Assembly: GCA_902610175.1 (NCBI GenBank)
Contig: CACLUR010000005.1
Span: forward strand, 1-64,000
Reading direction: 5' to 3'
DNA from: an uncultured Alphaproteobacteria bacterium
GTDB taxonomy: Bacteria; Pseudomonadota; Alphaproteobacteria; HIMB59
Length of the DNA: 64,000 nucleotides
The notes below the pieces were generated by a model. The model saw only the letters and a list, made by a program, of their open reading frames with translations. It made no database searches and was not told the DNA's origin. A program made the position numbers and the translations under genes. Positions 1 to 16,593 of the stretch are shown in pieces (position 1 is the stretch's first letter; every line of letters starts with the position of its first letter).

Positions 1-8
1 CTAAAAAG

Positions 9-1235
9 TTAATTAATAAACTCTGATTTTATATTCGGGATAAATCTTACCAATTGAATTCTTTTTTTTGTAATTGATTGTATTTTCTTTTTTATCTCAG
101 AATAATGATTCCAAGGAAATATAATTATTATATCTATATTTTTATTTATATTTCGTCCAAATTTAATAATTTTAATATCTGTGCCAGGGATATATTTACC
201 TATTTTTGCTGCAGTTTCGTCATAAATATACTTTATTGAGTTAAAATTTAATTCACAATAATTTATTAAAGTACAAGCTTTGGCTGCAGCTCCAAATCCA
301 TAAATTTTTTTATTTTGATTTTGTTTATGAAATTTTAGAATTTCTTTTTTTAATTTATTAACTCTTTTATTAAAAATTGTGTATGTATTTTTTTTTGTTA
401 ATTTACTCTCAATTTCTTCTTTAATTAAATTATTAACTTTTTTTCTAATTTTAACTTTATTTTCATTTTTAGCTATATGTACTCTTAAGCTTCCCCCGTG
501 AGTATTTATTTTATCTACATCAATAATTTTCAAATTATATTCTTTAAATATTTTTTTTAAGCTTGATAGAGAGAAATAATAGAAATGTTCGTGATAAATT
601 GTATCAAATTGATTGTATTTAATAAGATTTTTTAAATGGGGTACTTCAATACAAATAATACAATTATTTGTCATTAGATTTATCATAGATTTAATAAAGT
701 TATGTATTTTTGGCACATGCGCAAAAACATTATTAGCAATAATTAAATCTGCTTTATTATTTTTCTTTAAAATTTCTTTTGAGGATTTTGTATTTAAATA
801 AGAATTAATTGTCTTAATTCCTTTTTTGTTAGCTACCTTAGCAATATTTTTAGCAGGCTCAATACCATAATAGTTTATTTTTTTATTTTTTATATGTTGT
901 AATAAATATCCATCATTAGATGCAATTTCTACAATTGTTGATTTATCATTTATCTTGTAAGTTTTTATTAATTTATCAATATTTTCTTTTGCTAAACTAA
1001 CAAAATTTTTTGAGTATGATGAAAAATATTGATACTGTGAAAAAATATTCTCGCCTTTTAGCTTTGTGCTATGTTGAACTAAATAACAATTAGTGCAAAA
1101 AAATAAATGTAACATATGTTTAGTTAATTTTAATGGATGATTAGTATATGAGTTTGCTAATGGTGTTTTACCAATATTAATTACTTCTTGACTAAGTTGA
1201 TAATTACAAAAATTACATAAATTTTTTGATTTCAT
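9..1235 (-). CDS. NDP-sugar C-methyltransferase (TylC3/NovU type)
   Basis: Probable SAM-dependent C-methyltransferase acting on a nucleotide-activated 4-keto-6-deoxysugar in the cytoplasm. The 408 residues match the three-part family layout. An N-terminal zinc-binding region has Cys7/Cys10 and Cys47/Cys50. The Rossmann methyltransferase core has a relaxed motif I (VEIASNDGY, about 102-110). A C-terminal sugar-binding domain includes GFGAAAKA. The family signature YHEH is at 214-217, followed by THGGSLR at 245-251. Its start overlaps the end of rfbB by 23 nt, so the two are probably co-translated. The RfbB product, dTDP-4-keto-6-deoxyglucose, is the class of substrate used by such enzymes, so a branched deoxysugar is a plausible product; the methylated carbon cannot be told from sequence. 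The reading frame closes just inside the window edge. Confidence 0.85.
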   Translation of the reverse strand: MKSKNLCNFCNYQLSQEVINIGKTPLANSYTNHPLKLTKHMLHLFFCTNCYLVQHSTKLKGENIFSQYQYFSSYSKNFVSLAKENIDKLIKTYKINDKSTIVEIASNDGYLLQHIKNKKINYYGIEPAKNIAKVANKKGIKTINSYLNTKSSKEILKKNNKADLIIANNVFAHVPKIHNFIKSMINLMTNNCIICIEVPHLKNLIKYNQFDTIYHEHFYYFSLSSLKKIFKEYNLKIIDVDKINTHGGSLRVHIAKNENKVKIRKKVNNLIKEEIESKLTKKNTYTIFNKRVNKLKKEILKFHKQNQNKKIYGFGAAAKACTLINYCELNFNSIKYIYDETAAKIGKYIPGTDIKIIKFGRNINKNIDIIIIFPWNHYSEIKKKIQSITKKRIQLVRFIPNIKSEFIN

Positions 1236-2229
1236 TTATATTTTCAAGATACCAATCTATAGTACTTAGTAAATTTCTGTCAAAATTTCTAGTATTAATT
1301 TTGATTCCTAATTTGTTTATTTTTTTTAAATTAACATCATACTTAATATCATGTCCCAAACGATCCTCAACATATTCAGTAGCATCATTAAAATTAATAT
1401 TTGTCTTAAATTTTTTGTTAAATGCAAGGATAAGCCTCTTAATTAATGAATTATTGCTTATACAATTATTTCCTCCAATGTTATAAGAATTTCCATGTGA
1501 CCCTTTTTTGTAGATTTCAAAAATTGACATTGCATTATCTTTGACATAAATCCAATCCCTCATATTTAGACCTTTTCCATAAATAGGTATCTTTTTTCCA
1601 GATATTAAATTGTATATGGCTTTTGGGATTAATTTTTCAGGTAACTGACCAGGGCCAAAATTATTAGAGCTATTTGTGATGATTGTTTTTAGTCCAAATG
1701 TTTTATTGAAAGATCTAATTAATAACTCCGCTGATGCTTTTGAAGCTGAATAAGGTGAATTAGGGAAAAATTTATCAGTTTCTAAAAATTTTTTTTTTGA
1801 ATTATGGGGTATAGATCCAAATACTTCATCGGTTGATATTTGAAAAAACAGTCCATTGTCTAACATTTTATTTTTTTTCCAAAATAAATAACTTGTTTGT
1901 AAAAGATTTAGAGTGCCTAAAATATTGGTGTTACAAAATTTTTCAGGATTTAAAATAGAATTATCTACATGACTTTCAGCTGCAAAGTTAAAAACTAAAT
2001 CAATATTGTGATATCGAAATAAATCTTTGAGTTTTTTTTTATTTGAAATATCAAAATTATAAAAAAAATAATTTTTCAACTTATTAAGATTGTAGGAGTT
2101 AATAATAAAAAAATTATGTGTAATTTTATCAATATTAATTATATTAGCTTTGGTTTTAGTACTTAAATAATTTATAAAATTAGACCCAATAAAGCCTAAC
2201 CCTCCAGTAATTAAAATATTTTTATGCAT
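1213..2229 (-). CDS. rfbB: dTDP-glucose 4,6-dehydratase
   Basis: Second step of dTDP-deoxysugar synthesis: dTDP-glucose to dTDP-4-keto-6-deoxyglucose, using bound NAD. It is an extended short-chain dehydrogenase of 338 residues, close to family size. The nucleotide-binding glycines are G9, G12 and G15. The dehydratase signature TDE is at 133-135, which supplies the Asp-Glu acid/base pair, and the YxxxK pair is Y160/K164. The start codon overlaps the end of rfbD by one base, and the 3' end overlaps the downstream methyltransferase. All four dTDP-rhamnose genes are present in a row here, so rhamnose or a related 6-deoxyhexose is the expected product. The gene is as AT-rich as the rest of the polysaccharide locus. 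Confidence 0.93.
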   Translation of the reverse strand: MHKNILITGGLGFIGSNFINYLSTKTKANIINIDKITHNFFIINSYNLNKLKNYFFYNFDISNKKKLKDLFRYHNIDLVFNFAAESHVDNSILNPEKFCNTNILGTLNLLQTSYLFWKKNKMLDNGLFFQISTDEVFGSIPHNSKKKFLETDKFFPNSPYSASKASAELLIRSFNKTFGLKTIITNSSNNFGPGQLPEKLIPKAIYNLISGKKIPIYGKGLNMRDWIYVKDNAMSIFEIYKKGSHGNSYNIGGNNCISNNSLIKRLILAFNKKFKTNINFNDATEYVEDRLGHDIKYDVNLKKINKLGIKINTRNFDRNLLSTIDWYLENINEIKKFM

Positions 2230-3056
2230 TAAATAATTTTATTTAGCTCTTTTTTCCAAAAAATTTTCTTAATTTTATACTTTTTGAATGTTGAGTCACA
2301 ATTCAAGATACTTATTTTTGGTCTTTCAACTATATCAAATTTTAAAATATTATTTATTTTTTTTTTATATTTCTTTTTATTTTTCTTATTGTAGATTTCA
2401 ATTATTTTTAAGGTAAATTTATCTCTAGAGATTGCTGGAAAATTTCTAAAATGAAGAATTTCTTTAGTTTTAATATTTTGGTTTATAATTTTATTTATAA
2501 AAAAGGATAAGCTATCACTTGAAGTAGGGCATCCAATCTCATTATTTATGAATAAATTTTCATTTTTTTTTATTTTATCTATAATTTTATCAACAAAATT
2601 ATTTTTATATTTACTAAATAGCCAAGATGTTCTAACTATAGAATAGTTGTTTGATTTAAATTTAATGACTTCTTCTCCATAATTTTTACTTAAACCATAA
2701 ATATTTATTGGATTTTTTTTCTGATTTTCAAAATTTTCATTTAAATTGTTAAAGACATAATCTGTTGATATGTGAAATAATTTGACTTTATGTTTGTTTA
2801 ATATTTCACATAAATTTATTAATGAAAAACAATTGATATCGAAACATTTAATCACGTTTTTTTCAGATAGGGGTAAATTTGTATATGCTGCAAAATTTAT
2901 AAAATTTTTTATTTTATACTTCTTAATTATTTTTTCTATTTTAAGGATATCTATTAAATTCAATTTTTCTTTTGCAAAATATAAATTATTTTTTTCTCCA
3001 AAATTTTTAGTATAAGTTTTTCCTAATCCCCCATTACAACCGACAAATAAATTCAT
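2229..3056 (-). CDS. rfbD: dTDP-4-dehydrorhamnose reductase
   Basis: Last step of dTDP-L-rhamnose synthesis, NAD(P)H-dependent reduction of the 4-keto group. The 275-residue protein is a compact SDR of the RmlD family. It has an N-terminal nucleotide-binding region (VGCNGGLG), the segment NFAAYTNLP, the STDYVF strand and the catalytic YGLSK (YxxxK), followed by RTSWLFS as in RmlD. It sits between rfbC and rfbB with single-base overlaps on both sides, typical of translational coupling. The first glycine-rich motif differs slightly from the usual GxxGQLG (NGGLGK), a modest divergence. Family assignment is firm; the exact stereochemical product is inferred from the operon. Confidence 0.9.
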   Translation of the reverse strand: MNLFVGCNGGLGKTYTKNFGEKNNLYFAKEKLNLIDILKIEKIIKKYKIKNFINFAAYTNLPLSEKNVIKCFDINCFSLINLCEILNKHKVKLFHISTDYVFNNLNENFENQKKNPINIYGLSKNYGEEVIKFKSNNYSIVRTSWLFSKYKNNFVDKIIDKIKKNENLFINNEIGCPTSSDSLSFFINKIINQNIKTKEILHFRNFPAISRDKFTLKIIEIYNKKNKKKYKKKINNILKFDIVERPKISILNCDSTFKKYKIKKIFWKKELNKII

Positions 3057-3586
3057 TATTTATTTTCAATAAAAAAAGGAAGTTTTTTGTCTTTTTTTGA
3101 AACAATCATTCTTTCATAACTATTTTTTATTTTTTTAAAAACTGGATCATAAATGTTTATTCCTGTTTGAAATTTTGGTTTATACTCACCTTTAATCAAA
3201 TAAATTACTTCATTATTTTCATCTTTTGCATAAAAACCATGGGCACAACCTTTGGGTATGTAAACAAACTTGTTATCATTTTTTTTTAAATTCAATTTAA
3301 TAATCGAATTATATGTTTTTGAAGATTTTCTTAGATCAAAGATATAGTCATCTATTTTCCCTTGTAGAACCGAAACTATTTTTTCTTGAGGAAATTTTAA
3401 TTGAATATGAAATCCTCTAAAAACATTTTTTTTTGACTTAGAAATTATTAATTGATCTGGGCTAAATTTATAATTGTTTTTAATCTTAAAATTGAAATTT
3501 AAAATATTGGTTTTACCTCTTATGTCGTTATAACTATCAGAATAAAAATAAAAACAATCCTTTATTTTAGTTTTAAATATTTTCAT
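3056..3586 (-). CDS. rfbC: dTDP-4-dehydrorhamnose 3,5-epimerase
   Basis: Epimerises dTDP-4-keto-6-deoxyglucose at C3 and C5 ahead of RfbD. It is a cupin-fold protein of 176 residues, the usual family size. Visible landmarks are FRGFHIQ with the active-site His60, QEKIV with Lys69, the FDLR strand, PKGCAHGF, and the GEYKP segment that carries the catalytic tyrosine region. The 5' end overlaps rfbA by 14 nt and the 3' end touches rfbD. The usual RGLHYQ motif reads RGFHIQ here, which keeps the histidine. Identification rests on motifs plus position among rfbA, rfbD and rfbB. Confidence 0.9.
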   Translation of the reverse strand: MKIFKTKIKDCFYFYSDSYNDIRGKTNILNFNFKIKNNYKFSPDQLIISKSKKNVFRGFHIQLKFPQEKIVSVLQGKIDDYIFDLRKSSKTYNSIIKLNLKKNDNKFVYIPKGCAHGFYAKDENNEVIYLIKGEYKPKFQTGINIYDPVFKKIKNSYERMIVSKKDKKLPFFIENK

Positions 3587-4463
3587 TTATTAAATTTTGA
3601 AGATAATTTTTGTATTCAGAGTTAGGTATTTCATGAATTAATTGAAGAAATTTATTTTTGTTGATAAGGTTTTTTCTATAGCAAATCTCTTCTAAGCACA
3701 TAATTTTTAATCCTTGTCTTTTTTCAATCATTCTTACATACTCACTTACATCTAATAATCTAATAGGAGAACCGGCATCATACCACACAAAACCTCTTGG
3801 CAATTCTGAGTACATTAATTTATTCTCTTTTAAATATAAATTTAATAAATCAATAATTTCTAATTCTCCTCTTTTTGAAAATTTTATATCTTTAATTTTC
3901 TTTATTGCTGAATTATCAAAAAAATAAATGCCGGTTATTGCTTTTTTTGATTTAGTTTTTTTGGGTTTTTCAATTAATTTAAAGGGTTTACGGTTTGACT
4001 TAGTCTCAATAATTCCATAATCCCAAGTATTCTCTACATTATATGTAAAAATATGAGCTCCTTCATATGAGTTAAATTTATCCTCAAAGTATTTTGACAT
4101 GTTACTACCATAAAAAAAGTTATCACCTAATATTAAACAAATTTTATTGTATTTAGATATTTGTTTTGATTCTATTTTGAATATTTCAGGAATACCATTT
4201 GGTTTTTTTTGGACGGTATAGTTAATTTTAATTCCAAATGAAGACCCATTTCCATATCTTTTTTTTAGGCTAATAATAGTTTTAGAATCGCTTAATATTA
4301 ATATATTTCTAATTCCAATTAATATCATTGTAGAAATTGAGTAATCTAACATTGGTTTGTCATAAATGGGTAAAAGGTGTTTATTGATATAATTTGATAA
4401 TGGATATAATCTTGATCCTGTACCGCCAGCAAGTATTATTCCTAAATTTGATGAACTAAACAT
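3573..4463 (-). CDS. rfbA: Glucose-1-phosphate thymidylyltransferase
   Basis: First step of dTDP-sugar synthesis: dTTP plus glucose-1-phosphate gives dTDP-glucose. The 296-residue protein has the nucleotidyltransferase signature LAGGTGSRLYP at residues 11-21, then HLLPIYDKPM, ILGDNFFYG with the metal-binding Asp, and EKPKK further on. These are all standard for RfbA/RmlA. It is the first gene of the minus-strand rfbACDB-methyltransferase run. Only 3 bases separate its start codon from the divergent flippase start at 4467, so any promoter for this operon must lie inside the flippase coding sequence. Confidence 0.94.
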   Translation of the reverse strand: MFSSSNLGIILAGGTGSRLYPLSNYINKHLLPIYDKPMLDYSISTMILIGIRNILILSDSKTIISLKKRYGNGSSFGIKINYTVQKKPNGIPEIFKIESKQISKYNKICLILGDNFFYGSNMSKYFEDKFNSYEGAHIFTYNVENTWDYGIIETKSNRKPFKLIEKPKKTKSKKAITGIYFFDNSAIKKIKDIKFSKRGELEIIDLLNLYLKENKLMYSELPRGFVWYDAGSPIRLLDVSEYVRMIEKRQGLKIMCLEEICYRKNLINKNKFLQLIHEIPNSEYKNYLQNLINENI

Positions 4464-4466
4464 AAT

Positions 4467-5740
4467 ATGAAACTTAAATCATTCTTAGATAAATATAAAA
4501 TAGATAGTTTTAGCTTAAACACACTTATCTTTTTTACAATCATAAATTCAGGCAATGTATTTAGTTATATTTTTCAGTTCTCATTGGCAAGATTCACTTC
4601 TATAGAAAATTTCGGACTTTATAATTCAGTAAGTTCTATATTGATGTATTTTTCTGCAATCGTTTCAACGCTCCCATATTTTGTGACAAAAACTTTAAGT
4701 TACAAGAATGGTAAAATAATAATCTGGAATTATTTCTTTCTAATTTTTATGATTATTAATTTATTAATAATAATCTTTCATTTTTTTATTTTAGATTTTC
4801 TAGGATTTAAAGATGAAGGTTATTTTTTCTATATATATTCGATTATTAATTTATCAACTCTATTATCATTTTTAACAGGCTTTCTTCAATATAATAAAAA
4901 CTATAATAAATTTAGTATTGTTATATCGCTTCAAATGTTTTTTAGATTTATCGTTTTGCTAGTATTTTTTTATTTTTTAAAAAATATTGAAGTACATCAT
5001 GCTTTATTATCTAATTTAATTCCCTTATTTATTATTTTAATTATTACAATTTATTTTTCATATAAATTTTTACCAAATGATTTTGGGTTAATTTTTTTAT
5101 AAATAATTTTATCTTATCAATATCAAAAATTAATTTTTCATTTATTAAAAGTTTTTTTAATGATTTTTTACCTATTTACCTCACTAATCTTTTAATTATA
5201 TTTATTTTAGCAAGTGATATTTTATTAATTAAACTTAAATTTGATTTAAATACAGTTGGTATTTTTTCTGCATCTGCAATTATGGCAAAAATTATTTTTT
5301 ATTTACCTGCTGCCTTATCGATCATTAGTTATTCAGAAAATATTAAAAATATTGAAATCCGAAAACTTGGGATAATTATTTTATTATTGAATTCTGTTTG
5401 TTTAACCGTGTTTTTAATTTATTTATTTTTTGGTGATATTATCTTAGCCTTCTCTTTTGGAGATGATTATTCTATCTCTCATTCATATTTGATAATAAAT
5501 TCACTTTGTTATTTATTTTTATCAAATATCGTATTGATAAATTATGTTTTAGTATCGCAAAATATTAAAATTCAGATCTTTTTTATTTCTATAATATTTT
5601 TTTCTTCTTATTTGTGGTGTTATTATTATATTAATGACATTTTAACAATTTTAAAAATACTGTTAATTACAAATATAGCTGCCTTAATAATTGTTACTTT
5701 CCAGTTTTATAAGTTTTATAATGTATCTAAATACTCTTAG
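4467..5740 (+). pseudogene. Wzx-like polysaccharide flippase, frameshifted
   Basis: A polytopic inner-membrane protein that would flip lipid-linked oligosaccharide to the periplasm (MATE/MVF-type Wzx fold). The first part reads from 4467 to a stop at 5100-5102. The second part is open in a different frame from 5081 to the stop at 5740. Adding a single T to the T7 run at 5092-5098 joins them into one continuous protein of about 424 residues, the normal size for Wzx, with hydrophobic segments throughout and no gap. The fragment beginning at the internal ATG 5282 is therefore not a separate gene. The break lies within a 34-bp sequence repeated at 5886. It could be a true mutation, a slippage-corrected gene or an assembly error. 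The 3' end overlaps the convergent decarboxylase gene by 14 bp. Family assignment is by topology and context, without a diagnostic motif. Confidence 0.72.
5078..5111 (+). repeat. 34-bp direct repeat, copy 1
   Basis: These 34 bases are identical, base for base, to 5886-5919. The flanks differ at once on both sides: A versus T before, T versus G after. Copy 1 spans the point where the flippase reading frame breaks and includes the T7 run. Confidence 0.9.
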
Positions 5741-6668
5741 ATTTGTTTCTAAAATAATCTATTGTGATATCTATACCTTTTTCCAACTGAATTTTAGGTT
5801 CCCAGCCAAAAATTTTTTTTACAGATGATAAGTCTGGTTGTCTTATTTTAGGATCATTTATAGGCATTTGTTTATGTATTATTTTTGATTTTGGGTTAAT
5901 TTTTTTATAAATAATTTTAGCTATATCCATTATTGAAAATTCTCTATTATTTCCAATGTTAAGCGGTTTATCGATTAATTCTTTTTTAAAAGCAATAAGT
6001 GATATTATATTAATTAAATCTTCAATATAGCAAAAAGATCTTGTTTGATCACCTTTACCATAAATAGTTATATCTTCATTATTAAGAGCTTGATTAATAA
6101 AATTTGAAATCACTCTACCATCTTTTTTATCCATGTAGGGCCCATAAGTATTAAATATTCTCCCTATTCGAGCATCAACATTTAATTTATTCATATACTC
6201 GTATATTAAGGTTTCTGCTATTCTCTTTCCTTCATCATAACATGACCTAGGTCCAAAGATATTTGTATTACCATAATAAGTTTCTTTTTGTGGATGTTCT
6301 AGAGGATCGCCATAAATTTCACTTGTAGACGCATGAAAAATTCTAGCTTTTTTTGATTTAGCAAGATCTAAAAGATTTTTTAATCCTAAATAACAAGTGT
6401 CAAGAGTTTTAAAAGAATGTTCTTGATATTTTGGGGGAGAGGCTGGGCATGCGAGGTTAAAAATCAAATCAACATCAATATTTATTTTATTACATATATC
6501 CTCTTCAATATATTTGAAGTTTTTGTAATTAGATAAACCAGATATATTTTCTTTGGAACCGGTAATATTATTATCTAGACAAATTATTTGATAATTAGTG
6601 TTTTGAACCAATAACCTTGCAAGATTAGATCCTATGAAGCCTGTTCCTCCTGTGATAAGTATATTCAT
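5727..6668 (-). CDS. UDP-glucuronate decarboxylase (UDP-xylose synthase)
   Basis: Extended SDR that converts UDP-glucuronate to UDP-xylose, supplying a pentose for the surface polymer. The start is placed at 6668 (MNILITGG). The frame stays open further upstream, but only by reading through the tRNA-Leu gene. The 313 residues show G7/G10/G13, the UXS-typical LACPASP at 72-78, TSEIYG at 115-120, GPRSCYDEGKR with Y144/K148, and RSFCYIEDL. These distinguish it from plain epimerases. No UDP-glucose dehydrogenase is in the window, so the substrate must come from elsewhere. Its 3' end overlaps the flippase by 14 bp and carries copy 2 of the 34-bp repeat. Confidence 0.85.
   Translation of the reverse strand: MNILITGGTGFIGSNLARLLVQNTNYQIICLDNNITGSKENISGLSNYKNFKYIEEDICNKINIDVDLIFNLACPASPPKYQEHSFKTLDTCYLGLKNLLDLAKSKKARIFHASTSEIYGDPLEHPQKETYYGNTNIFGPRSCYDEGKRIAETLIYEYMNKLNVDARIGRIFNTYGPYMDKKDGRVISNFINQALNNEDITIYGKGDQTRSFCYIEDLINIISLIAFKKELIDKPLNIGNNREFSIMDIAKIIYKKINPKSKIIHKQMPINDPKIRQPDLSSVKKIFGWEPKIQLEKGIDITIDYFRNKSKSI
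5886..5919 (+). repeat. 34-bp direct repeat, copy 2
   Basis: Identical to 5078-5111. This copy lies in the 3' half of the UDP-glucuronate decarboxylase gene, which is read on the opposite strand. There it codes for ordinary family sequence (around IIYKKINPKSKI), so it looks native in this location. Confidence 0.9.
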
Positions 6669-6674
6669 TTTCAA

Positions 6675-6762
6675 TGGTAGCCTCGGGCGGACTCGAACCG
6701 CCACGGGAATAAATCCCACTGGATTTTAAGTCCAGACTGTCTACCAATTCCAGCACGAGGCC
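6675..6762 (-). tRNA. tRNA-Leu (anticodon UAA)
   Basis: The minus strand folds as a class II tRNA. The acceptor GGCCUCG pairs with CGAGGCU (a G-U pair at the end). The anticodon stem CUGGA/UCCAG encloses loop CUUAAAA, giving anticodon UAA for the UUA codon. There is a long variable arm GGGAUUUAUUCCC and a T arm GGCGG-UUCGAGU-CCGCC, and the 3' CCA is encoded. It lies inside the polysaccharide locus, six bases ahead of the decarboxylase start codon on the same strand, so the two may be co-transcribed. Confidence 0.95.
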
Positions 6763-6837
6763 TCAGGGTCAATAATTTATGCTTAAAGTATTAGATTTTC
6801 AATCAAATTTTGATAAAAGATTTATAACATATATAGA

Positions 6838-7500
6838 ATGCACAAACTAATTAGAAAAGAATATATTAATGAAAATTTATTTAAGATTTTTTTTGACAAA
6901 AAAGATCTTAAATTTTTTCCAGGTCAGCACTTTAGCTTATCAATTCCAAATAAATCTATTAACAGAGAGTATTCATCTTATACATCTTCAAATGATAAAG
7001 AGTTAGGCTTCCTCATAAGAAGGGTAGAGGGAGGAATAATGTCAAATTTATTAGATAAAATGGAGGTTGGAGATGAATTAAATATATATGGTCCCTATGG
7101 TTCTTTTGTATTAAAAGATGAATATATTGAAAATAAACAAATTATTTTTATAGCATCCGGGACAGGTATAGCTCCATTTGTATCCATGAAAGAAACATAC
7201 AATTTAGATAACTACAAATTATTTGTAGGTATCAGAGAAACAAGAGATTTAGCTGACGCAGAGAAGTTTGATGAAAGCAAATCATATTATTGTATTTCAA
7301 GAGAAGATAATATTTCTAAAAACAATCATTATAAAGGGAGAATTAACAACCAACTAGAAAAAATTGAATATATTAAGGATTATGAAAATTCTATTTATAT
7401 GATTTGTGGAAATTCATATATGATTAGTGATGTCTATGATATACTAGTTAAAGAAAAAAAAATTAACCCAAATAATATTATTACAGAATCTTTTTTTTAA
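6838..7500 (+). CDS. Ferredoxin/flavodoxin-NADP reductase-like flavoprotein
   Basis: A 220-residue FAD/NAD(P)H oxidoreductase of the FNR superfamily with no iron-sulfur domain. Visible are the FAD-binding REYS at 43-46 (RxYS), the phosphate-binding IRRVEGGIMSN loop (60-70), YGPYGSF, the NAD(P) motif GTGIAPF at 108-114, and YMICGN near 188-192. The last residues, with Glu217, resemble the C-terminal FNR tail. Its stop codon overlaps the start of the radical SAM gene by one base (TAATG), so the two are almost certainly translated together. The likely role is to pass electrons from NAD(P)H toward that enzyme, directly or through a flavodoxin or ferredoxin encoded elsewhere. Physiological partner and substrate are unproven. 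A CDP-dideoxysugar reductase role is less likely, since those proteins carry a 2Fe-2S domain that is absent here. Confidence 0.8.
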   Translation: MHKLIRKEYINENLFKIFFDKKDLKFFPGQHFSLSIPNKSINREYSSYTSSNDKELGFLIRRVEGGIMSNLLDKMEVGDELNIYGPYGSFVLKDEYIENKQIIFIASGTGIAPFVSMKETYNLDNYKLFVGIRETRDLADAEKFDESKSYYCISREDNISKNNHYKGRINNQLEKIEYIKDYENSIYMICGNSYMISDVYDILVKEKKINPNNIITESFF

Positions 7501-9005
7501 TGAAAATTTCAATATCTTATCCACCTATAATAAATCATTTAGGTCAAAAAGCCATGGTTTCTCAAAATAGAAATGTCCAGTATTTTAAAAAACCTACTTA
7601 CCTATTACCTGTTGTTCAAGCACAAGCTGCTACTAAATTAAAGAAAAATGGTTTTGATGTAATATGGGATGATGGTAATGCAGAATTAAAAACTTTTGAT
7701 AAATGGTATTTAGATTTAATTAAAATCAAACCTGACTTGATTTTTATGGAGGGTACTACTCCAGTTATGCATTTTTTATGGGATCTATCAAAAAAAATAA
7801 AAAAAGAATTACCAAATACTATCTTAGTAATTGGAGGCTATCATGCAATGAGACAACCTCAGGAAACTTTATTAAAGTCAGATTTTGATATAGTTTTAAA
7901 AAGCACTAATTTAGATTTTGTACTTTTAGAACTTTGTAATGAATTAAAGATTAATAATTTGAGTCTTAATAAAATTGAAACCAAAGGTATAACTTATCGA
8001 AAACAAGACACCTTGGATGAAATTATTGATAATGGTGCTTTCAAAATGGTTGAAAATCTCGATTCATCTGAAATTGTAGATAGAAATCTTGTTAAATGGA
8101 AAAATTATGCATATGAGAATGGTAATTTTCTTCAAACACCTGGTACTTATTCTTCAAGTGTAATTAGAGATTGTATGTTTGGTAAATGCACCTTTTGTAG
8201 ATATAACGGTCCTGAATTATCCTTTTCAAAAATGTCAATTACAAAGAGTGTTGACGAGTATGAGGATTTAATAATTAATCATGGAGTAAAAGAGATATTT
8301 GATGACTCGGGCGTATGGTTTAGAGGTAAAGATGCAATTGATTTTGCAAAAGAAATTATAAGAAGGGGCTTACACAGGAAAGGTTGTTATTTTGGTTTTA
8401 ACACAAGATTTGAGTATCTTGATGAGGAAACTATAAAATGGTTAGCTAAAGCGAATTTTCGTTTTATTTTGATTGGGCTAGAGTCTGGCTCAAATTATAC
8501 TCTTAATAAATTAAATAAGGGATATTCGATGAGAGAAATTAGAATGAATTTAGAATTAATGACAAAATATGGTTTGCATCCTCACCTGACTATAATGGTT
8601 GGATACTATTGGGAAACTAAAGAAATGTTGGATGAAACTGTAAATGTTGTAAAAGATTTTATGTTTAAAGGTTTGGCAAGAACATTGCAAGTTACTATCT
8701 GCACTCCAGTTGATTACACTCCTTATCATATTGAATGTGTTGAAAAGAAAAAACTAATTGTTGATAATTATAATGATTTTGACATGAGTAAAGTAATTGT
8801 TAAGACTCCAATTGATCATTCTTACTACTATAAAGCAATTAAAGAAATGTACTCAATTGCATTTCACCCTAAATTTATAATAAGACAAATTATATTTTTA
8901 TTTAATTTTAAGAAAAGAGACTGGCAATTTTTATTTACCTATAGCATTAGAGCTATAAGAAGAGTAAACCAACATATTTTTAATCTAACAAACAAAGCTA
9001 GTTAA
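7500..9005 (+). CDS. B12-binding-type radical SAM enzyme
   Basis: Radical SAM protein of 501 residues in the three-part layout of the cobalamin-binding class. Residues 1-150 form an N-terminal Rossmann region resembling a B12-binding domain (PPI...GFDV...KPDLIFMEG...LVIGGYHA). A radical SAM barrel follows with its cluster cysteines at 225, 230 and 233, then EIFDDSG, RFILIGLESGS and a C-terminal helical part. The cluster spacing is CX4CX2C rather than the textbook CX3CX2C; longer spacings are known in B12-type members. No DxHxxG cobalamin motif is visible, so B12 binding is inferred from fold. Such enzymes methylate or rearrange unactivated carbons. Here it is coupled to a flavin reductase and followed by a glycosyltransferase, so a sugar or polyprenyl-linked glycan may be the target. 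The substrate is unknown. Confidence 0.82.
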   Translation: MKISISYPPIINHLGQKAMVSQNRNVQYFKKPTYLLPVVQAQAATKLKKNGFDVIWDDGNAELKTFDKWYLDLIKIKPDLIFMEGTTPVMHFLWDLSKKIKKELPNTILVIGGYHAMRQPQETLLKSDFDIVLKSTNLDFVLLELCNELKINNLSLNKIETKGITYRKQDTLDEIIDNGAFKMVENLDSSEIVDRNLVKWKNYAYENGNFLQTPGTYSSSVIRDCMFGKCTFCRYNGPELSFSKMSITKSVDEYEDLIINHGVKEIFDDSGVWFRGKDAIDFAKEIIRRGLHRKGCYFGFNTRFEYLDEETIKWLAKANFRFILIGLESGSNYTLNKLNKGYSMREIRMNLELMTKYGLHPHLTIMVGYYWETKEMLDETVNVVKDFMFKGLARTLQVTICTPVDYTPYHIECVEKKKLIVDNYNDFDMSKVIVKTPIDHSYYYKAIKEMYSIAFHPKFIIRQIIFLFNFKKRDWQFLFTYSIRAIRRVNQHIFNLTNKAS

Positions 9006-9011
9006 AAATTA

Positions 9012-10052
9012 ATGATAATAGTTCATGATTTTTTTTCCCAAAATGGAGGTGGAGAAAATCTCATGTCATCATTAGCTAAAGAGTTAAATATAAAAATATT
9101 AACATCTTATAATGTAAAAAAAAAACATAAATTAATTAAACAATCCAGAATTAATTTTTTATTAAAAAGAAGTAAATTATTTGTGTACTTATTTTTCAGG
9201 TACTTTTTTAGAATTAATGTAGATGACATAATAATTTTTAGCGGAAATCATTGTTGTTTTTCAATTTCAAACTGTAAAGCTAAAAAAAAAATTCTTTACG
9301 CACATTCATTACCAAAATCACTGTTCTCAGACTTATATATGGACCATAAAAGAAGCTTTTTTAGTGAATTCTTAAAAAATAATCATATAAAACATTATAT
9401 TAGAAATTTACAAAGCTTAGACAAGATCATATTTAACTCAAATAAAACTAAACTTAAATTCCTTCATGTTTTTAAAGATTTAGAAAAAAATGTTGAAACA
9501 GAAGTTTTGTATCCTTTTAGTGATTTAGAATTTAGAGAAAAAAAGTTAACAAATATAAAAAAAAGTAAATATTTTGTTATTAACTCTAGACATCAACATT
9601 ATAAAAATATAAACCATATTTTGTCTTTATTACTTCCTTTCCTAAAAAAAAATAAGGATGTCAAAATATTTATTACACAAGAGGGAAAACTCACAGAAAA
9701 TTTAATGATATCTCATAATCAATTAAAGCAAATTAACTTTACTGGATATCTAAAATTAAGAGATTACCAGTCACTTTTATTAAATTCTGCTGGTATAATT
9801 TTCCCGTCTAGAGATGAAGACTTCGGTATAGCAGCTCTAGATGCTTACAACTTAAGCATCCCTGTAATTGTTCAAAAAAACTGTGGTTTCTCTGAAATAC
9901 TTCCTGATGACTATTCCTATTTTTATAATGACATGAATTTAAACGATATTATGACTAGATTAATATCTGACAACGAAATTAAAACTGTATTTTATAAAAA
10001 TAAATTGGACTACAAAAAAATATTCCTTCAAAGAATAAGTGATCTATCCTAA
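9012..10052 (+). CDS. Glycosyltransferase, GT4-like (GT-B fold)
   Basis: Retaining GT-B glycosyltransferase of 346 residues that would add a sugar to the lipid-linked glycan at the inner face of the membrane. The N-terminal acceptor-side motif QNGGGENLM is at 10-18. The C-terminal nucleotide-sugar domain has INFTGYLKLRDYQSLL (241-256), then FPSRDEDFG and ALDAYNLSIPVIV (264-287). The usual EX7E pair reads Glu269...Asp277, a conservative change. It starts six bases after the radical SAM gene and is followed three bases later by the initiating transferase, consistent with one transcript. It is the only clear glycosyltransferase in the locus besides the initiating enzyme. Donor and linkage cannot be read from sequence. 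Confidence 0.82.
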   Translation: MIIVHDFFSQNGGGENLMSSLAKELNIKILTSYNVKKKHKLIKQSRINFLLKRSKLFVYLFFRYFFRINVDDIIIFSGNHCCFSISNCKAKKKILYAHSLPKSLFSDLYMDHKRSFFSEFLKNNHIKHYIRNLQSLDKIIFNSNKTKLKFLHVFKDLEKNVETEVLYPFSDLEFREKKLTNIKKSKYFVINSRHQHYKNINHILSLLLPFLKKNKDVKIFITQEGKLTENLMISHNQLKQINFTGYLKLRDYQSLLLNSAGIIFPSRDEDFGIAALDAYNLSIPVIVQKNCGFSEILPDDYSYFYNDMNLNDIMTRLISDNEIKTVFYKNKLDYKKIFLQRISDLS

Positions 10053-10055
10053 TTA

Positions 10056-11024
10056 ATGAATAACATTCATTTTTATTTTTTATTATCAACCGTTTTATTT
10101 AGTATCTTTTTTTTAATTAATTTAAAAAATTTTGCCCTACATTTACACTTAATAGATAATGCAATTAATAAAATTCATCAAATTGATACACCAAAATTTG
10201 GTTTTTTTTTATCTATTATAATATTAATTAATATTCTATTTTTATTTTTTTTTTTCGAAATTTCTTATAACCATATTTGTATTACTATTTACATTTTTAT
10301 TTTTTCTGTTATTGGCTATTTAGATGATAGATATGATCTATCAGTAAAAAAAAGATTTTTATTTTCATTAATTGCTACTTCAATCTTTTTTCTTATTAAT
10401 CCGAATAACTACTATGTTAGCTTTTTATTTAATTCATATATAAATTATTTATTATTAATTTTTTTTACTCTGGGCTTTATACATCTTGTTAATATTTCAG
10501 ATGGAATAAATGGTTATGTACCAAGTTTATTCTTGTACTCATGTTTATATTATCTATTTAAAGGCTATCCACATTTAGACTTTTTCTTTCAAATATTAAT
10601 TCTTATTTCAATTGCATCAATTTCAATTTTTGTAATTCCTAACTTTCTGGGTTTGTGTTTTCTTGGAAATAGTGGCTCTTATTTTATTTCAATTTTAATT
10701 TCACTTTTTTATATGGATCTTTATTCAAATAATGTATTGGAATATTCTGATATCCTCTTAATATTTTTTATCCCATTGATTGATGGTTTGAGAGTTACTG
10801 TTAAGCGTATTATCAATGGAACCAGTCCATTCAAAGGAGATTTTACACATATTCATCACCTTGTAAGAAAAAAAAAATTTTTAAAATATTTATTTTTTTT
10901 ACAAGTATTTTCCCCTTCATTTATTAATTTCTTTTTTAGGGACTTTACTATACTTATAGCTATCTGTTCTGCTATAATTTTTTCTTTTTTTTATATTCAC
11001 TTAAGTAGTAAAGTAAAAAACTGA
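10056..11024 (+). CDS. WecA/MraY-family polyprenyl-phosphate sugar-1-phosphate transferase
   Basis: Multi-pass membrane enzyme (322 residues) that transfers a sugar-1-phosphate, usually a HexNAc-1-P, to undecaprenyl phosphate and so starts repeat-unit synthesis. Family landmarks in order: DTPKFG (44-49), GYLDD with Asp90/Asp91 binding Mg, NISDGINGY (146-154), FLGNSGSYF with GNSGS at 204-208, PLIDGLRV, and HIHH at 265-268. The usual FxGDxGS aspartate is Asn here. HIHH is typical of WecA/WbpL-type enzymes rather than MraY, as is its place among polysaccharide genes. About ten hydrophobic segments are seen. It lies three bases after the glycosyltransferase. Confidence 0.85.
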   Translation: MNNIHFYFLLSTVLFSIFFLINLKNFALHLHLIDNAINKIHQIDTPKFGFFLSIIILINILFLFFFFEISYNHICITIYIFIFSVIGYLDDRYDLSVKKRFLFSLIATSIFFLINPNNYYVSFLFNSYINYLLLIFFTLGFIHLVNISDGINGYVPSLFLYSCLYYLFKGYPHLDFFFQILILISIASISIFVIPNFLGLCFLGNSGSYFISILISLFYMDLYSNNVLEYSDILLIFFIPLIDGLRVTVKRIINGTSPFKGDFTHIHHLVRKKKFLKYLFFLQVFSPSFINFFFRDFTILIAICSAIIFSFFYIHLSSKVKN

Positions 11025-11059
11025 ATAATTATTATTTTGATTAAATATATTCTTATTAT

Positions 11060-12286
11060 ATGGATAAAATAAAATTTCTAAAAAATTATGATTTATTAAA
11101 TATATTAATCATTACTTACTTATTGAGTTATATCGCTGGTCCAGCAATAATCAATATATATTTAACAATAATTTCAATTTATTGTTTATTTTATTTTTAT
11201 CAAAATAAAGAAAAATTGATTTTTTTACAGAAAGATAAATCATTTATTTTTTTCTCAATCTTTATTTTATATATATTTTTAAAAGATATTTTCCTGTATA
11301 AATTTAATCCTGAATTACTCTCTTTTGTAAGAGTATATATAATATTTTCTTTTATCTGCTTTTATTCATTAAATAAAAACGTGAAAATTGATATTAAGTA
11401 TAAATATATTGTATTAATCTTATTAATATTCAACATAGACTCAATTTTTCAATATATCTTTAAATTTAATTTAGTTGGATTTCAAATATTTAATCATAAT
11501 AGACTTACAAGTTTTTTTGATAACGAACCTATTGTTGGAAGTTTTATTATGAAATTATTTTTTCCACTATTAACTCTTTATATATATAAAATAAAAAAGG
11601 ATCTATTAACTTTTGTAGTCTTATTATTTTCTATAGTTGTAATACTAATATCTGGAGAAAGAATGCCATTTCTTCAACTAATTTTCGGAATATTTATATT
11701 CACATTATTTTCTCTTAAATTTTCAAAAAAAATAATTTTATTTTTCACAACATGTATTTTTTTAATAATTTCAATTTTTATTATAAGTCCATCAGCTTTT
11801 GATAGATACAAAGACACATTTAATGGAATAAATTCTCTATATAATGACATAAAAGAGGAAAAAAATCTTGAATCCCAAATAATATCTAAACATGGTGTCT
11901 ACGATTATTATCAAAATTTTAATTCAGCAATTATTTTATGGAAAAAAAATTATCTATTTGGCAATGGATATAGGTACTACAAAAATAATTGTAATAAAGA
12001 ATTAGAGACATCTGATATATGGGGATGCTCTACACACCCTCATAATATTTATTTAGAAATTTTGTCCGATTATGGACTTATAGGCCTCTCAATTTACTTA
12101 ATTTTTTTATATAAATTACTCGTTAATTTTTTGAAATCAGATAATAAAAAATATTATGGTATTTTTTTAACTATCTTGGTAACGTCCGTGCCATTTGTAA
12201 CTTCACCGAGTATTTTTTCAAGTCACTATGGGTCAATTTATTTTTTTTACTTCTTTCTATTAAGATATTATACAGTATTAAAATAA
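11060..12286 (+). CDS. O-antigen polymerase/ligase-like membrane protein (Wzy/WaaL superfamily)
   Basis: A 408-residue polytopic membrane protein with about ten hydrophobic helices and one large periplasmic loop, about residues 250-335. The loop holds YYQNFNSAIILWKKN, LFGNGYRYY and the characteristic HPHNIYLEILSDYGLIG. This is the Wzy_C/O-antigen ligase pattern, as is the earlier SGERMPFLQ. It either polymerises repeat units or joins the finished chain to lipid A-core; sequence does not separate the two. It is the last plus-strand gene of the polysaccharide locus. The following 114 bp, before the convergent block, contain a possible weak terminator. Confidence 0.78.
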   Translation: MDKIKFLKNYDLLNILIITYLLSYIAGPAIINIYLTIISIYCLFYFYQNKEKLIFLQKDKSFIFFSIFILYIFLKDIFLYKFNPELLSFVRVYIIFSFICFYSLNKNVKIDIKYKYIVLILLIFNIDSIFQYIFKFNLVGFQIFNHNRLTSFFDNEPIVGSFIMKLFFPLLTLYIYKIKKDLLTFVVLLFSIVVILISGERMPFLQLIFGIFIFTLFSLKFSKKIILFFTTCIFLIISIFIISPSAFDRYKDTFNGINSLYNDIKEEKNLESQIISKHGVYDYYQNFNSAIILWKKNYLFGNGYRYYKNNCNKELETSDIWGCSTHPHNIYLEILSDYGLIGLSIYLIFLYKLLVNFLKSDNKKYYGIFLTILVTSVPFVTSPSIFSSHYGSIYFFYFFLLRYYTVLK

Positions 12287-12313
12287 AGAGGAAATTTCAT
12301 TTAGGATCATTAA

Positions 12314-12359
12314 AATTTATAAATTATTTTATTTATTACATTATAAATTCAAATTTTTT
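12314..12359 (+). terminator. Possible bidirectional terminator, AU-only hairpin
   Basis: A perfect 9-bp inverted repeat (AATTTATAA at 12314-12322, TTATAAATT at 12341-12349) with an 18-base loop is followed by T6 at 12354-12359. It lies in the only sizeable convergent gap of the window (12287-12400). The stem has no G-C pair, so it is weak and could be chance in such AT-rich DNA. Confidence 0.3.
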
Positions 12360-12400
12360 AATTAATTAAGATAATTTAATAAAATATTGTTTATATTACC

Positions 12401-13507
12401 TTAATTATTTAAATAGTCTAAACTATCTAAAAAAATTGTATCTAATTTTTTTTTATTAAAAAAAACTTCAGAAAATAAATTATAATTTTTAAATTCTAAT
12501 GAATAATTTGGAGTAAATATATTCTTATTTTTTTTACTTAATATATCTATGTATGCTGTGGGTAATTCATTCTCAATACTTTTGACTTCATTTAAAGATA
12601 AAGGACTTAATTGAATGTTAAAATCTTTGAAAGCTTTTATTCTTACTTTCTCATTAATTAAATAGCACAAAAATCCCGAACTTTGTGAATTGTTTAAATA
12701 TGCACTAAACCCATAAAAAGATATTGGATTAACTTCTAAATTATCTTCAAATATCCCTTTTTCTTGATTCCAAATATATTTACTTTTTGGAAAAAGTTGA
12801 AATTTATTATAATCAGTATTTTTGTTCAACAAAATACCATCGCTAAACAATGTATAAACGTTTTCAGAGTTTTCAAAAGAGTTATAGACCTCCAAAAAAT
12901 TATTATTCAAAATATTTTTATTGATATTTTTATATATGCTTTTGAATAAATTTGTAGTCAACTCAAATGATGAACTATTAATATCAATGGATGGTTCCTC
13001 CAAGTGATAAATTAGTAAATTTATAATTTCTTCGTTTGTAAGAAAACTCATTCCTAATGTATATTTAACAGGATTGTAAATTTCTATTAATTCTTCAAAT
13101 GTTAAACTCTCAATTTCATTTTTGCTTAATAAAATAAATGTATCTAAATCTAAAGGAAATATATTTCCCAAAATCTCAATATCATTATTTTTATAAAAAT
13201 TTTGTAATCTGTCAGGTATTATTATTTTATTTGAGCTTAATTTTTTTAAATCCCCAAATTCTCCAAATATTATGTCAAATTCATCTGCATTATTGTCAAC
13301 TAAATTGATATCAAATAATACTTCGTTGTTTGATGAGTATTCACCTAATGCATAATATAAATAATATTTATAATCTATGTAATTATTTTCAATTAGACCT
13401 ATTTTTAGATCTTTCTTTGTTAAACATTCTTTAGATAAAGTATTTTTAGAGAAAAAAAATAATAAAATAAAAATTAATAAACTTTTGAAAATTAATAAAA
13501 ATTTCAC
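12401..13507 (-). CDS. Secreted protein of unknown function, possibly solute-binding-like
   Basis: I do not recognise this 368-residue protein with certainty. It begins with a clear export signal: a Lys start, a hydrophobic run to about residue 22, then SKNTLSKEC. The mature part has short beta-strand/helix alternation such as DLKIGLIEN, EFDIIFGEFGDL and PLDLDTFILLSKN, loosely like periplasmic binding proteins of ABC transporters. No permease or ATPase gene adjoins it. It sits five bases after nadK on the same strand, at the end of the DUF3553-moaA-nadK run. Only two cysteines are visible, Cys27 and one late in the chain (GFLCYL), which could form a disulfide. Secretion is well supported; the binding-protein idea is a guess. 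Confidence 0.55.
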   Translation of the reverse strand: MKFLLIFKSLLIFILLFFFSKNTLSKECLTKKDLKIGLIENNYIDYKYYLYYALGEYSSNNEVLFDINLVDNNADEFDIIFGEFGDLKKLSSNKIIIPDRLQNFYKNNDIEILGNIFPLDLDTFILLSKNEIESLTFEELIEIYNPVKYTLGMSFLTNEEIINLLIYHLEEPSIDINSSSFELTTNLFKSIYKNINKNILNNNFLEVYNSFENSENVYTLFSDGILLNKNTDYNKFQLFPKSKYIWNQEKGIFEDNLEVNPISFYGFSAYLNNSQSSGFLCYLINEKVRIKAFKDFNIQLSPLSLNEVKSIENELPTAYIDILSKKNKNIFTPNYSLEFKNYNLFSEVFFNKKKLDTIFLDSLDYLNN

Positions 13508-13512
13508 TTAAA

Positions 13513-14274
13513 TTAATTAGATTTAAACATTTCTTTATAAACACGCTCTTCAATTTTATGATCATTATCAAATAATAAAGGTATTTCCATACCCTCGGAC
13601 ATCTCTATTTCAACAGATATAACATCTTTAGCTTCAATATGATCAGCATGAACTACTATTGGTCTTTTAGAAGGATTATTATTAATAATTTTAATCTTTG
13701 CATTATCTTTTAATAGACCTCCACGCCAATGTCTTGGGCTATATGCACTTACAGCAGTTAGAGCTACAACATTACTTCCAAGTGGAATAATTGGTCCAGA
13801 GGCAGAGTAATTATACCCTGTGCTACCTGCAGCTGTTGACAGTATTACACCATCACAAACAAGCTCTTCTATTCTTACTTCGTTGTCTATCATAATTTGA
13901 ATTTTTGCAGCTTGATACTTTTCTCTACGAATACTGATCTCATTAATAGCAATAGCTTTAATTTCTTGACCTGTAGGATTTAAAGTTTTCATTACTAAAG
14001 GTCTTAATTTTGTTAATTGAGCATTATGTAGCCGTTCCTCTAATCCATCAAGTTTGTAATCATTCATCAAGAATCCAACAGATCCAAAATTCATGCCGTA
14101 AATTGGTTTGTTAAGTTTCATATAATTATGAAGAGATTTTAATATAAAACCATCCCCTCCAAGCGCTACAATGAAATCTGCCTCTTCAGGCTCGCAATTA
14201 CCATATTTTTTTTTAAGCTTCTCTTGAGCCTCAATATTTTTTTCAAGAGGAAAAGAAACAAAACATATTTTCAT
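13513..14274 (-). CDS. nadK: NAD kinase
   Basis: ATP-dependent phosphorylation of NAD to NADP, the only known de novo route to NADP. The 253 residues show the kinase signature GGDG at 39-42 within ALGGDGFILKSLH, then NFGSVGFLMN, the NE pair at 111-112 (AINEISI), and the TAAGSTGYNYSASGP segment. These are the conserved motifs of the family. The start at 14274 is supported by a strong Shine-Dalgarno GGAGG seven bases upstream, which lies inside the last codons of moaA. The product serves NADPH-requiring enzymes, including the isocitrate dehydrogenase encoded here. Confidence 0.95.
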   Translation of the reverse strand: MKICFVSFPLEKNIEAQEKLKKKYGNCEPEEADFIVALGGDGFILKSLHNYMKLNKPIYGMNFGSVGFLMNDYKLDGLEERLHNAQLTKLRPLVMKTLNPTGQEIKAIAINEISIRREKYQAAKIQIMIDNEVRIEELVCDGVILSTAAGSTGYNYSASGPIIPLGSNVVALTAVSAYSPRHWRGGLLKDNAKIKIINNNPSKRPIVVHADHIEAKDVISVEIEMSEGMEIPLLFDNDHKIEERVYKEMFKSN

Positions 14275-14277
14275 TTA

Positions 14278-15273
14278 TTAACCTCCGGTCTCATTCATAT
14301 AACGATTAACATATCCCTCAAAATTATCTTTTTGAATTTCAAAGTTATGTGCTTTTGGTTTGATTAACATGGCATATTCTATTAAGGCAATAATATCATT
14401 TTTTGTTTGATTTCTTAGGGCAAATTTTAAATCTACAAAATCATTCTGTCCTAAACACATATATAATTTACCAGTGCATGTAAGTCTTACCCTATTGCAA
14501 GTATCACAGAAGTTATGAGAAATAGCAGATATAATACCAATTTTTGATTTATGGTCTGAATACTCATAGTATCTTGAAGGTCCGTTAGTTCGGTATTTAG
14601 AGGGAATTAAATTTAATTTATTTACTAAATCTTCCTCAAATTTCTTCATTGATAAATATTGATTAAATCTCTTTTCACCAATATCACCTATGGGCATTAT
14701 TTCAATTAACGAAATATCAAAATGGTTTCTTTTACACCAATCTAAAATATCAAATATTTCTTTGTCATTGAAATTTTGAGTTAAAACAGTATTAATTTTT
14801 ATCTTTATACCTTCTTGTTTAGCTACCTCTATCCCATTTATAACTTTTCTAAGATCTCCCCATTTTGTTATTTTCTTAAAACTCTCAGCATTTAAGCTAT
14901 CAAGGGAAACATTTATCCTTTCAACACCATTCTTTCTAAGGATAGATGCGTATCTTGATAAATTCGTACCATTTGTAGTTAAGGTATGCTCTAAAATTTT
15001 ACCTTGATTTTTTAAATTGTTTAAATGTTCTATAATTGAAACGATGTTTTTTCTAACAAGTGGCTCACCCCCTGTTAATCGAAATTTTTTTACACCCAAC
15101 TCATTAAAAATATCTGTAAGTTTAATAATTTCTTCGATTGATAAAACCTCTTGTCTAGGTAAGAATGTTACATCCTCAGCCATACAGTATGTACACCTCA
15201 AGTCACATCTATCTGTGACAGATATCCTCAAGTAATCAATTTTTCTCTTAAAATTATCAGTCAGCATTTTCAT
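14278..15273 (-). CDS. moaA: GTP 3',8-cyclase (molybdenum cofactor synthesis)
   Basis: Radical SAM enzyme for the first step of molybdopterin synthesis, GTP to 3',8-cyclo-GTP. The 331 residues carry the N-terminal cluster DRCDLRCTYC with Cys23, Cys27 and Cys30, and TGGEPL. The second, substrate-binding cluster is in CDTCNRVRLTCTGKL. The chain ends in the Gly-Gly pair required for activity. Its 5' end overlaps the DUF3553 gene by 17 bp. No other mo-cofactor gene is in the window, so the rest of the pathway must lie elsewhere. An alternative start is the second Met (MLTDNF), two codons in. Confidence 0.95.
   Translation of the reverse strand: MKMLTDNFKRKIDYLRISVTDRCDLRCTYCMAEDVTFLPRQEVLSIEEIIKLTDIFNELGVKKFRLTGGEPLVRKNIVSIIEHLNNLKNQGKILEHTLTTNGTNLSRYASILRKNGVERINVSLDSLNAESFKKITKWGDLRKVINGIEVAKQEGIKIKINTVLTQNFNDKEIFDILDWCKRNHFDISLIEIMPIGDIGEKRFNQYLSMKKFEEDLVNKLNLIPSKYRTNGPSRYYEYSDHKSKIGIISAISHNFCDTCNRVRLTCTGKLYMCLGQNDFVDLKFALRNQTKNDIIALIEYAMLIKPKAHNFEIQKDNFEGYVNRYMNETGG
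14282..14286 (-). promoter_or_regulatory. Shine-Dalgarno of nadK inside moaA
   Basis: GGAGG on the minus strand, seven bases before the nadK ATG. It is formed by the two glycine codons (GGA GGT) that end moaA, so one sequence serves both as the MoaA C-terminus and as the ribosome site for nadK. Most gene starts in this window have no comparable site. Confidence 0.8.
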
Positions 15274-15448
15274 GTATCTTTAAATCAACCACATTTAAAT
15301 CTATAACTTTTTTTCCTACGTTCTCAAAGTTAATAGTGATTTTACTATTTATACAAGATTGAACTTGCCCGAGACCCCAATCAGGTTGAGATGGGCATTC
15401 TACAATAGTACCTGGTATAAAATCGCTAAAATTAAAGTTATTTTCCAT
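15257..15448 (-). CDS. DUF3553 small protein
   Basis: A 63-residue protein of the DUF3553 family, widespread in alphaproteobacteria. The recognisable pattern is FIPGTIVECPSQPDWGLGQ, followed by QVQS and an INFENVGKKVID stretch, which suggests a small beta-barrel fold. The function is not established. It is the first gene of the minus-strand moaA-nadK run and overlaps moaA by 17 bp. Its start lies 51 bp from the divergent recA start. Confidence 0.75.
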   Translation of the reverse strand: MENNFNFSDFIPGTIVECPSQPDWGLGQVQSCINSKITINFENVGKKVIDLNVVDLKIHENAD

Positions 15449-15499
15449 TATTACACTTGTTAAGTAGAAACAAATATTTACTATTTAATATAGAATCAT

Positions 15500-16561: not shown

Positions 16562-16593
16562 TATTAAATTTCAGTTAAATTAATCTATATTCC

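Follow-up and report, generated by a model that had tools for sequence, protein, structure and literature searches.

Most work on radical S-adenosylmethionine (SAM) enzymes relies on artificial or general electron donors. The customary donor in vitro is E. coli Fpr (flavodoxin/ferredoxin:NADP+ reductase) together with flavodoxin. The flavodoxin/flavodoxin reductase/NADPH combination serves to reduce the [4Fe-4S] clusters of radical SAM enzymes in vitro and may do so in cells as well (PMC8992657). A precedent for a radical SAM enzyme and a reductase acting on a sugar is AprD4 with AprD3, the diol-dehydratase and NADPH reductase of apramycin biosynthesis (PMC5461906), and in the HpnI-HpnK-HpnJ route to bacteriohopanetetrol cyclitol ether a glycosyltransferase adds a sugar, which the radical SAM enzyme HpnJ then reworks (PMC12583986). 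Here, we describe a gene pair in the window, that is, the whole stretch of 64,000 nucleotides analyzed (contig CACLUR010000005.1, positions 1 to 64,000, from an uncultured marine Alphaproteobacteria bacterium of the SAR11 type), in which a gene for an FNR/Fpr-type reductase directly precedes a gene for a radical SAM enzyme. We estimate a probability of roughly 0.55 that the two products form one enzyme system, and the data are best explained by a radical SAM enzyme that has an electron supply of its own and works on a sugar or a sugar-lipid. Our search, which covered open-licence literature, found no paper describing such a reductase-radical SAM unit.

Like AprD4/AprD3, the window pair may consist of a sugar-modifying radical SAM enzyme and an NAD(P)H reductase dedicated to it, and AprD4 is both the best solved-fold match and the best PDB profile match of the window enzyme. 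However, the two share about 13% identity, the score against the AprD4 family (NF033070) is 22.2 bits against a cut-off of 500, the partner is of the FNR/Fpr type, and the setting is a surface-glycan locus instead of an antibiotic cluster. HpnJ belongs to the same superfamily and is likewise paired with a glycosyltransferase, but the window enzyme reaches 85.6 of the 578 bits set for TIGR03471, HpnJ has CX3CX2C cluster spacing, and the glycosyltransferase associated here belongs to a different GT2 family, which resembles MftF. BchE, the anaerobic Mg-protoporphyrin ester cyclase, shares the domain order and is the top NCBIfam match (TIGR02026, 116.5 bits), but under the cut-off of 481; it also has CX3CX2C spacing, and no tetrapyrrole genes were seen near the window enzyme.

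Conservation of the gene pair

The one-base overlap of the reductase stop and the radical SAM start (TAATG, 7498-7502) is present as the original prediction described it, with both reading frames intact. Its wording "fused in translation" was too strong, because the products are separate proteins and the junction gap in relatives runs from -4 to +123 nt; the tight coupling is therefore a SAR11 detail, and the conserved trait is the adjacency itself.

A peptide-pattern scan of 84,980 species genomes recovered 15 relatives of the radical SAM protein at 60-85% identity; as the scan favors close relatives, this count covers the subfamily of the window enzyme, not radical SAM proteins at large. The record titles name Alphaproteobacteria/Pelagibacteraceae, Gottesmanbacteria, Microgenomates, Shapirobacteria, other Patescibacteria, SAR324, Lambdaproteobacteria, Oligoflexia and Nitrospinaceae. 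In all 15, the immediately preceding gene, on the same strand, encodes a reductase orthologue (34-74% identity), and profile searches added two further members with the reductase, one from Patescibacteria (G410) and one from the phylum of a SAR324 genome (G596). We call the window enzyme and these 17 close relatives subfamily A, and their sister group subfamily B. The reductase gene is thus immediately 5' of the radical SAM gene in 18 of 18 subfamily A loci from at least five phyla, where the original prediction had held that finding the genes apart in most genomes would speak against it. Between pairs of loci, the identities of the reductases and those of the radical SAM proteins rise and fall together (r = 0.92, or 0.82 without SAR11; Mantel p = 2e-4). 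When a reductase profile was run over 40 genomes, orthologues (286-340 bits) appeared solely in the four that carry subfamily A, other FNR-like proteins scoring at most 109 bits, and in two SAR11 genomes searched the window-type reductase was the only match. These observations support the dedicated redox partner that the original prediction had proposed.

The AT-rich, patchwork window locus is typical of shuffled glycan islands, so that two functionally unlinked genes might have become neighbors by chance in a variable polysaccharide island. The strict adjacency over at least five phyla together with the co-varying identities places the pairing beyond chance, and with the confinement of the reductase orthologues to subfamily A genomes, the neighborhood survey refuted this explanation, to which we attach almost no weight. 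The GC contents of the reductase (25%) and radical SAM (28%) genes exceed those of most surrounding glycan genes (19-24%; the epimerase has 27%), which fits a separate import of the pair but does not prove it. Few genomes of the window's own order carry the pair (2 of 162). No relatives of it were found among viral contigs and phage records, so viruses and phages in these collections do not carry the module, and a plasmid search returned only distant BchE, HpnJ and unnamed radical SAM proteins at 23-25% identity.

Subfamily B proteins (about 350-440 bits to the profile) occur in at least 30 Patescibacteria among 380 sampled and in a few other genomes, and none of 38 subfamily B loci examined has the reductase. 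Asked whether the reductase always precedes this kind of enzyme, the survey thus answers yes for subfamily A and no for its sister; the wider family can do without the reductase. The best NCBIfam match of two subfamily B proteins scanned was HpnJ (153-161 bits). In two subfamily B genes from Patescibacteria (L083, 5983-8973, and L084, 5986-8931, both on the minus strand), in-frame inserts of about 430 aa stand exactly before the third cluster cysteine; the L083 insert matches Hint splicing and LAGLIDADG domains, and both inserts probably represent inteins within the SAM-cluster motif.

Domains, folds and the cobalamin question

The reductase consists of FAD and NAD(P) domains (Pfam FAD_binding_6, 2e-14; NAD_binding_1, 4e-9) with no 2Fe-2S domain. 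Its motifs REYS (FAD), GTGIAPF (NAD(P)) and C-terminal TESFF agree with the FNR/Fpr patterns R-x-Y-[ST] and GTGxxPF, and the R-x-Y-S motif and the terminal E-x-F-F are kept in 14 of 14 aligned reductases. The leading matches of its predicted structure (pLDDT 91) are GcoB, Fpr and FNR structures with TM scores of 0.82-0.86 (Fpr 0.82-0.84; E. coli Fpr, 1fdr, 0.84). The model thus places the protein with Fpr and FNR, electron donors for iron-sulfur partners, and the name "flavin reductase" given by the original prediction is replaced accordingly. The predicted fold is that of E. coli Fpr, but the window protein is shorter and is encoded directly with one radical SAM subfamily, in genomes mostly without flavodoxin: PF00258 was not found in nine of ten pair genomes searched, the window's own included, all of these searches being in incomplete genomes. 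A dedicated donor makes sense, because flavodoxin was not found in most of these genomes and the window-type reductase is the sole profile match in the two SAR11 genomes.

The AprD4/AprD3 precedent also raises a different role for the reductase: the radical SAM enzyme would yield a keto or unsaturated sugar, and the reductase would complete the reduction of this product. We consider this unlikely, as the window reductase belongs to a type whose members give single electrons to protein partners and retains the two invariant motifs, whereas AprD3 presumably has a different, short-chain dehydrogenase/reductase fold.

The radical SAM protein carries the superfamily domain (PF04055, 5.6e-15) and the three invariant cluster cysteines C225, C230 and C233. 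Their CX4CX2C spacing is found in 18 of 18 subfamily A and 35 of 38 subfamily B proteins, the other three having a longer loop, while BchE, HpnJ and two other relatives show CX3CX2C; the CX4CX2C spacing is shared by queuine lyase and is thus not confined to this family. In the tree, subfamily A forms one clade (support 100/100) distinct from BchE and HpnJ. The outgroups (BchE, HpnJ and the two other relatives) sit on very long branches of 5.6-10, so we rely on the subfamily A clade alone; subfamily B may comprise more than one clade. Together with the sub-cut-off family scores, this separate clade bears on the other outcome that the original prediction had named against itself, a grouping with a known family, and no such grouping was found.

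The predicted structure of the radical SAM protein (pLDDT 78 overall, below 50 around the cluster loop) best matched AprD4 (6fd2, E 2e-17, TM 0.65/0.71), followed by MgmA, OxsB and TsrM. A profile search of the PDB gave weak matches to AprD4 (best), queuine lyase, MgmA and OxsB; the sole match of a single-sequence search, PvuII, was rejected as spurious.

The N-terminal domain resembles B12-binding domains but scores 26.4 bits against a PF02310 cut-off of 32.1, and it is the only PF02310 match, at 26-29 bits, in the window's genome (94.6% complete). No TonB plug domain was found in nine pair genomes, the window's included, all of them incomplete; Patescibacteria are not known to have an outer membrane, so the absence of TonB is uninformative in that group. 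To our knowledge, SAR11 and Patescibacteria do not synthesize B12, and AprD4, the closest solved fold, we take to be cobalamin-free. The label "B12-type" in the original prediction therefore stands for the domain but is weakened for the cofactor, and the C-methylation that it suggested is not the favored chemistry. Such a class B methylase would hold methylcobalamin in its N-terminal domain, with the reductase keeping both cluster and cobalamin reduced. The B12-binding-like domain and the fold matches to MgmA, OxsB and TsrM agree with this. Such chemistry would also account for a dedicated reductase, since both cofactors of class B methylases have to be supplied with electrons (PMC8992657). 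The reading is opposed by the sub-cut-off score, the lack of any other B12-binding-type protein in the genome or of a TonB receptor for outer-membrane uptake, the AprD4 fold, and an ordinary sugar C-methyltransferase already encoded in the locus; we regard it as improbable. Because the domain is the sole one of its type in the genome and neither a TonB receptor nor flavodoxin was found, cobalamin-independent sugar chemistry with its own reductase appears likelier than B12-dependent C-methylation.

Glycan setting of the pair

The features around the pair are collected in Table 1. The placement in a polysaccharide locus is borne out: rmlA-D-like genes, the C-methyltransferase and the epimerase lie upstream, and the GT4, WecA-like and Wzy_C genes downstream. 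With the C-methyltransferase, the locus already has a conventional means of making a branched sugar. The break in the flippase frame, which may be real or an assembly error, coincides with a direct repeat of 37 nt (5078-5114 and 5886-5922, 97%). The epimerase frame called from a GTG at 6719 overlaps the tRNA, and its start is likely near 6667. A tRNA-directed island boundary was considered and rejected, the tRNA-Leu end being unrepeated in a repeat scan of 1-20000.

Table 1. Features of the window around the reductase-radical SAM pair
Feature	Position	Strand	Remarks
Sugar C-methyltransferase (PF08421/PF13489/PF08484)	9-1235	opposite to pair	upstream of pair, beside rmlA-D
rmlB, rmlD, rmlC, rmlA-like dTDP-deoxysugar genes	1213-4463	-
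wzx-like flippase	4467-5740		two ORFs in different frames, break near 5080-5102
NAD-dependent sugar-nucleotide epimerase/dehydratase	5727-6667	-
tRNA-Leu	6675-6762	-	between epimerase and pair
FNR/Fpr-type NAD(P)H:acceptor oxidoreductase	6838-7500	+	220 aa; stop TAA 7498-7500; ORF intact
Radical SAM enzyme, N-terminal B12-binding-like Rossmann domain	7500-9005	+	501 aa; ATG at 7500; ORF intact
[4Fe-4S]/SAM cluster motif C225-X4-C230-X2-C233	8172-8198	+	CMFGKCTFC
GT4-family glycosyltransferase	9012-10052	+	starts 6 nt past radical SAM stop
WecA-like polyprenyl-phosphate sugar-phosphate transferase (Glycos_transf_4)	10056-11024	+	ECA_wecA 63 bits
O-antigen ligase/polymerase-like (Wzy_C)	11060-12286	+

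The glycan context gains strength from relatives, in which the radical SAM gene has a gene for a membrane GT2 glycosyltransferase close by in 11 of 18 subfamily A and 32 of 38 subfamily B loci; these GT2 proteins belong to a single MftF-like family (motif WPGED[TS]). This GT2 is present somewhere in 15 of 16 pair genomes, the exception (G165) having a weak match and a fragmentary locus. Within the SAR11 order it was found in 5 of 162 genomes, including both pair genomes; three of the five match at E<1e-30, and these share one genus and are not independent. The closest named family is MftF (TIGR03965), the mycofactocin glycosyltransferase, but the GT2 proteins of L018 (89.5 bits) and of the window's genome (59 bits) fall below its cut-off of 280, and mycofactocin genes were not noticed near the loci examined, though no search was aimed at them. 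Subfamily B loci further contain a DPM1-like GT2 (26 of 38) and large multi-spanning proteins (27 of 38); Pfam identifies one of these as PMT-like, and a flippase is encoded next to it. A glycan setting is thus recurrent around the radical SAM gene, and some subfamily A loci (L017, L018, L025) also adjoin unrelated genes such as those for a PilT-family ATPase and an aminopeptidase. The association of GT2 and radical SAM protein is probably the older one, with the reductase tied to one clade.

In one SAR11-order genome (G148, 79% complete), the MftF-like GT2 (L118, contig C3, 1664-2641) stands beside a DPM1-like GT2 and no pair was found, which reflects either the incomplete assembly or use of the GT2 without the radical SAM enzyme. 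A predicted membrane protein of 148 aa lies directly 3' of the radical SAM gene in two SAR324 loci (L015, 2560-3006; L021, 7900-8346); the L015 protein had no Pfam or NCBIfam match.

The substrate might instead be a membrane lipid or polyprenyl carrier, as with HpnR, Tes and the enzymes modifying glycerol dialkyl glycerol tetraethers in the same superfamily. Hopanoid and tetrapyrrole enzymes (BchE, HpnJ, HpnR) are among the nearest named families, and the GT2 proteins of these loci have hydrophobic C-terminal segments, so that their acceptor may be lipid-linked. However, HpnJ itself works on a sugar head group supplied by HpnI and HpnK (PMC12583986), and the recurrent neighbors are glycan genes (GT2, DPM1-like GT2, flippase, PMT-like), not lipid genes; a lipid substrate seems doubtful to us.

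Proposed electron path and its implications

In the reading that we prefer, with reductase and radical SAM protein as one enzyme system, the reductase would draw electrons from NAD(P)H via FAD and hand them singly to the [4Fe-4S] cluster, directly or via ferredoxin. The reduced enzyme would then split SAM and take a hydrogen from the substrate. This substrate is likely a sugar, or else the sugar head on a glycan intermediate linked to the membrane, such as the MftF-like GT2 would produce. The chemistry would probably be a cobalamin-independent change to the sugar carbon skeleton or a hydroxyl, not methylation, such as an AprD4-like dehydration/deoxygenation or an HpnJ-like ring rearrangement. 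More tentatively, and at less than even odds, we propose a three-part glycan-remodeling system of MftF-like GT2, FNR reductase and cobalamin-free CX4CX2C radical SAM enzyme, which would have moved between SAR11, Patescibacteria, SAR324, Oligoflexia-type bacteria and Nitrospinota and would carry out radical deoxygenation or ring rearrangement of a membrane-linked surface sugar.

Several points weigh against this reading. The reductase-free loci of subfamily B indicate that another donor can serve the wider family, and other radical SAM genes of the same genome (a moaA-like gene at 14278-15273) must draw electrons elsewhere. In SAR11, the GT2 gene either lies on a different contig or is separated from the pair by tens of kilobases, and its product is more divergent (189-225 bits to the profile). 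The AprD4 fold match is remote, given the low identity and the weak model at the cluster loop, and a predicted likeness of superfamily fold leaves the reaction unfixed. Cobalamin may also enter by a route other than TonB.

The unit suggests an undescribed remodeling of a cell-surface sugar or glycolipid. With a natural reductase that is inherited together with one radical SAM subfamily over at least five phyla, it also offers a defined, testable donor-acceptor pair. About one-tenth of the sampled genomes of Patescibacteria, in which few biosynthetic pathways are known, contain the GT2-radical SAM association. If the reading is true, a dedicated electron path from NAD(P)H to a radical SAM enzyme is encoded with its enzyme in glycan biosynthesis, and a novel sugar or glycolipid on the surface of SAR11, SAR324 and Patescibacteria would matter for phage adsorption and for contact between cells.
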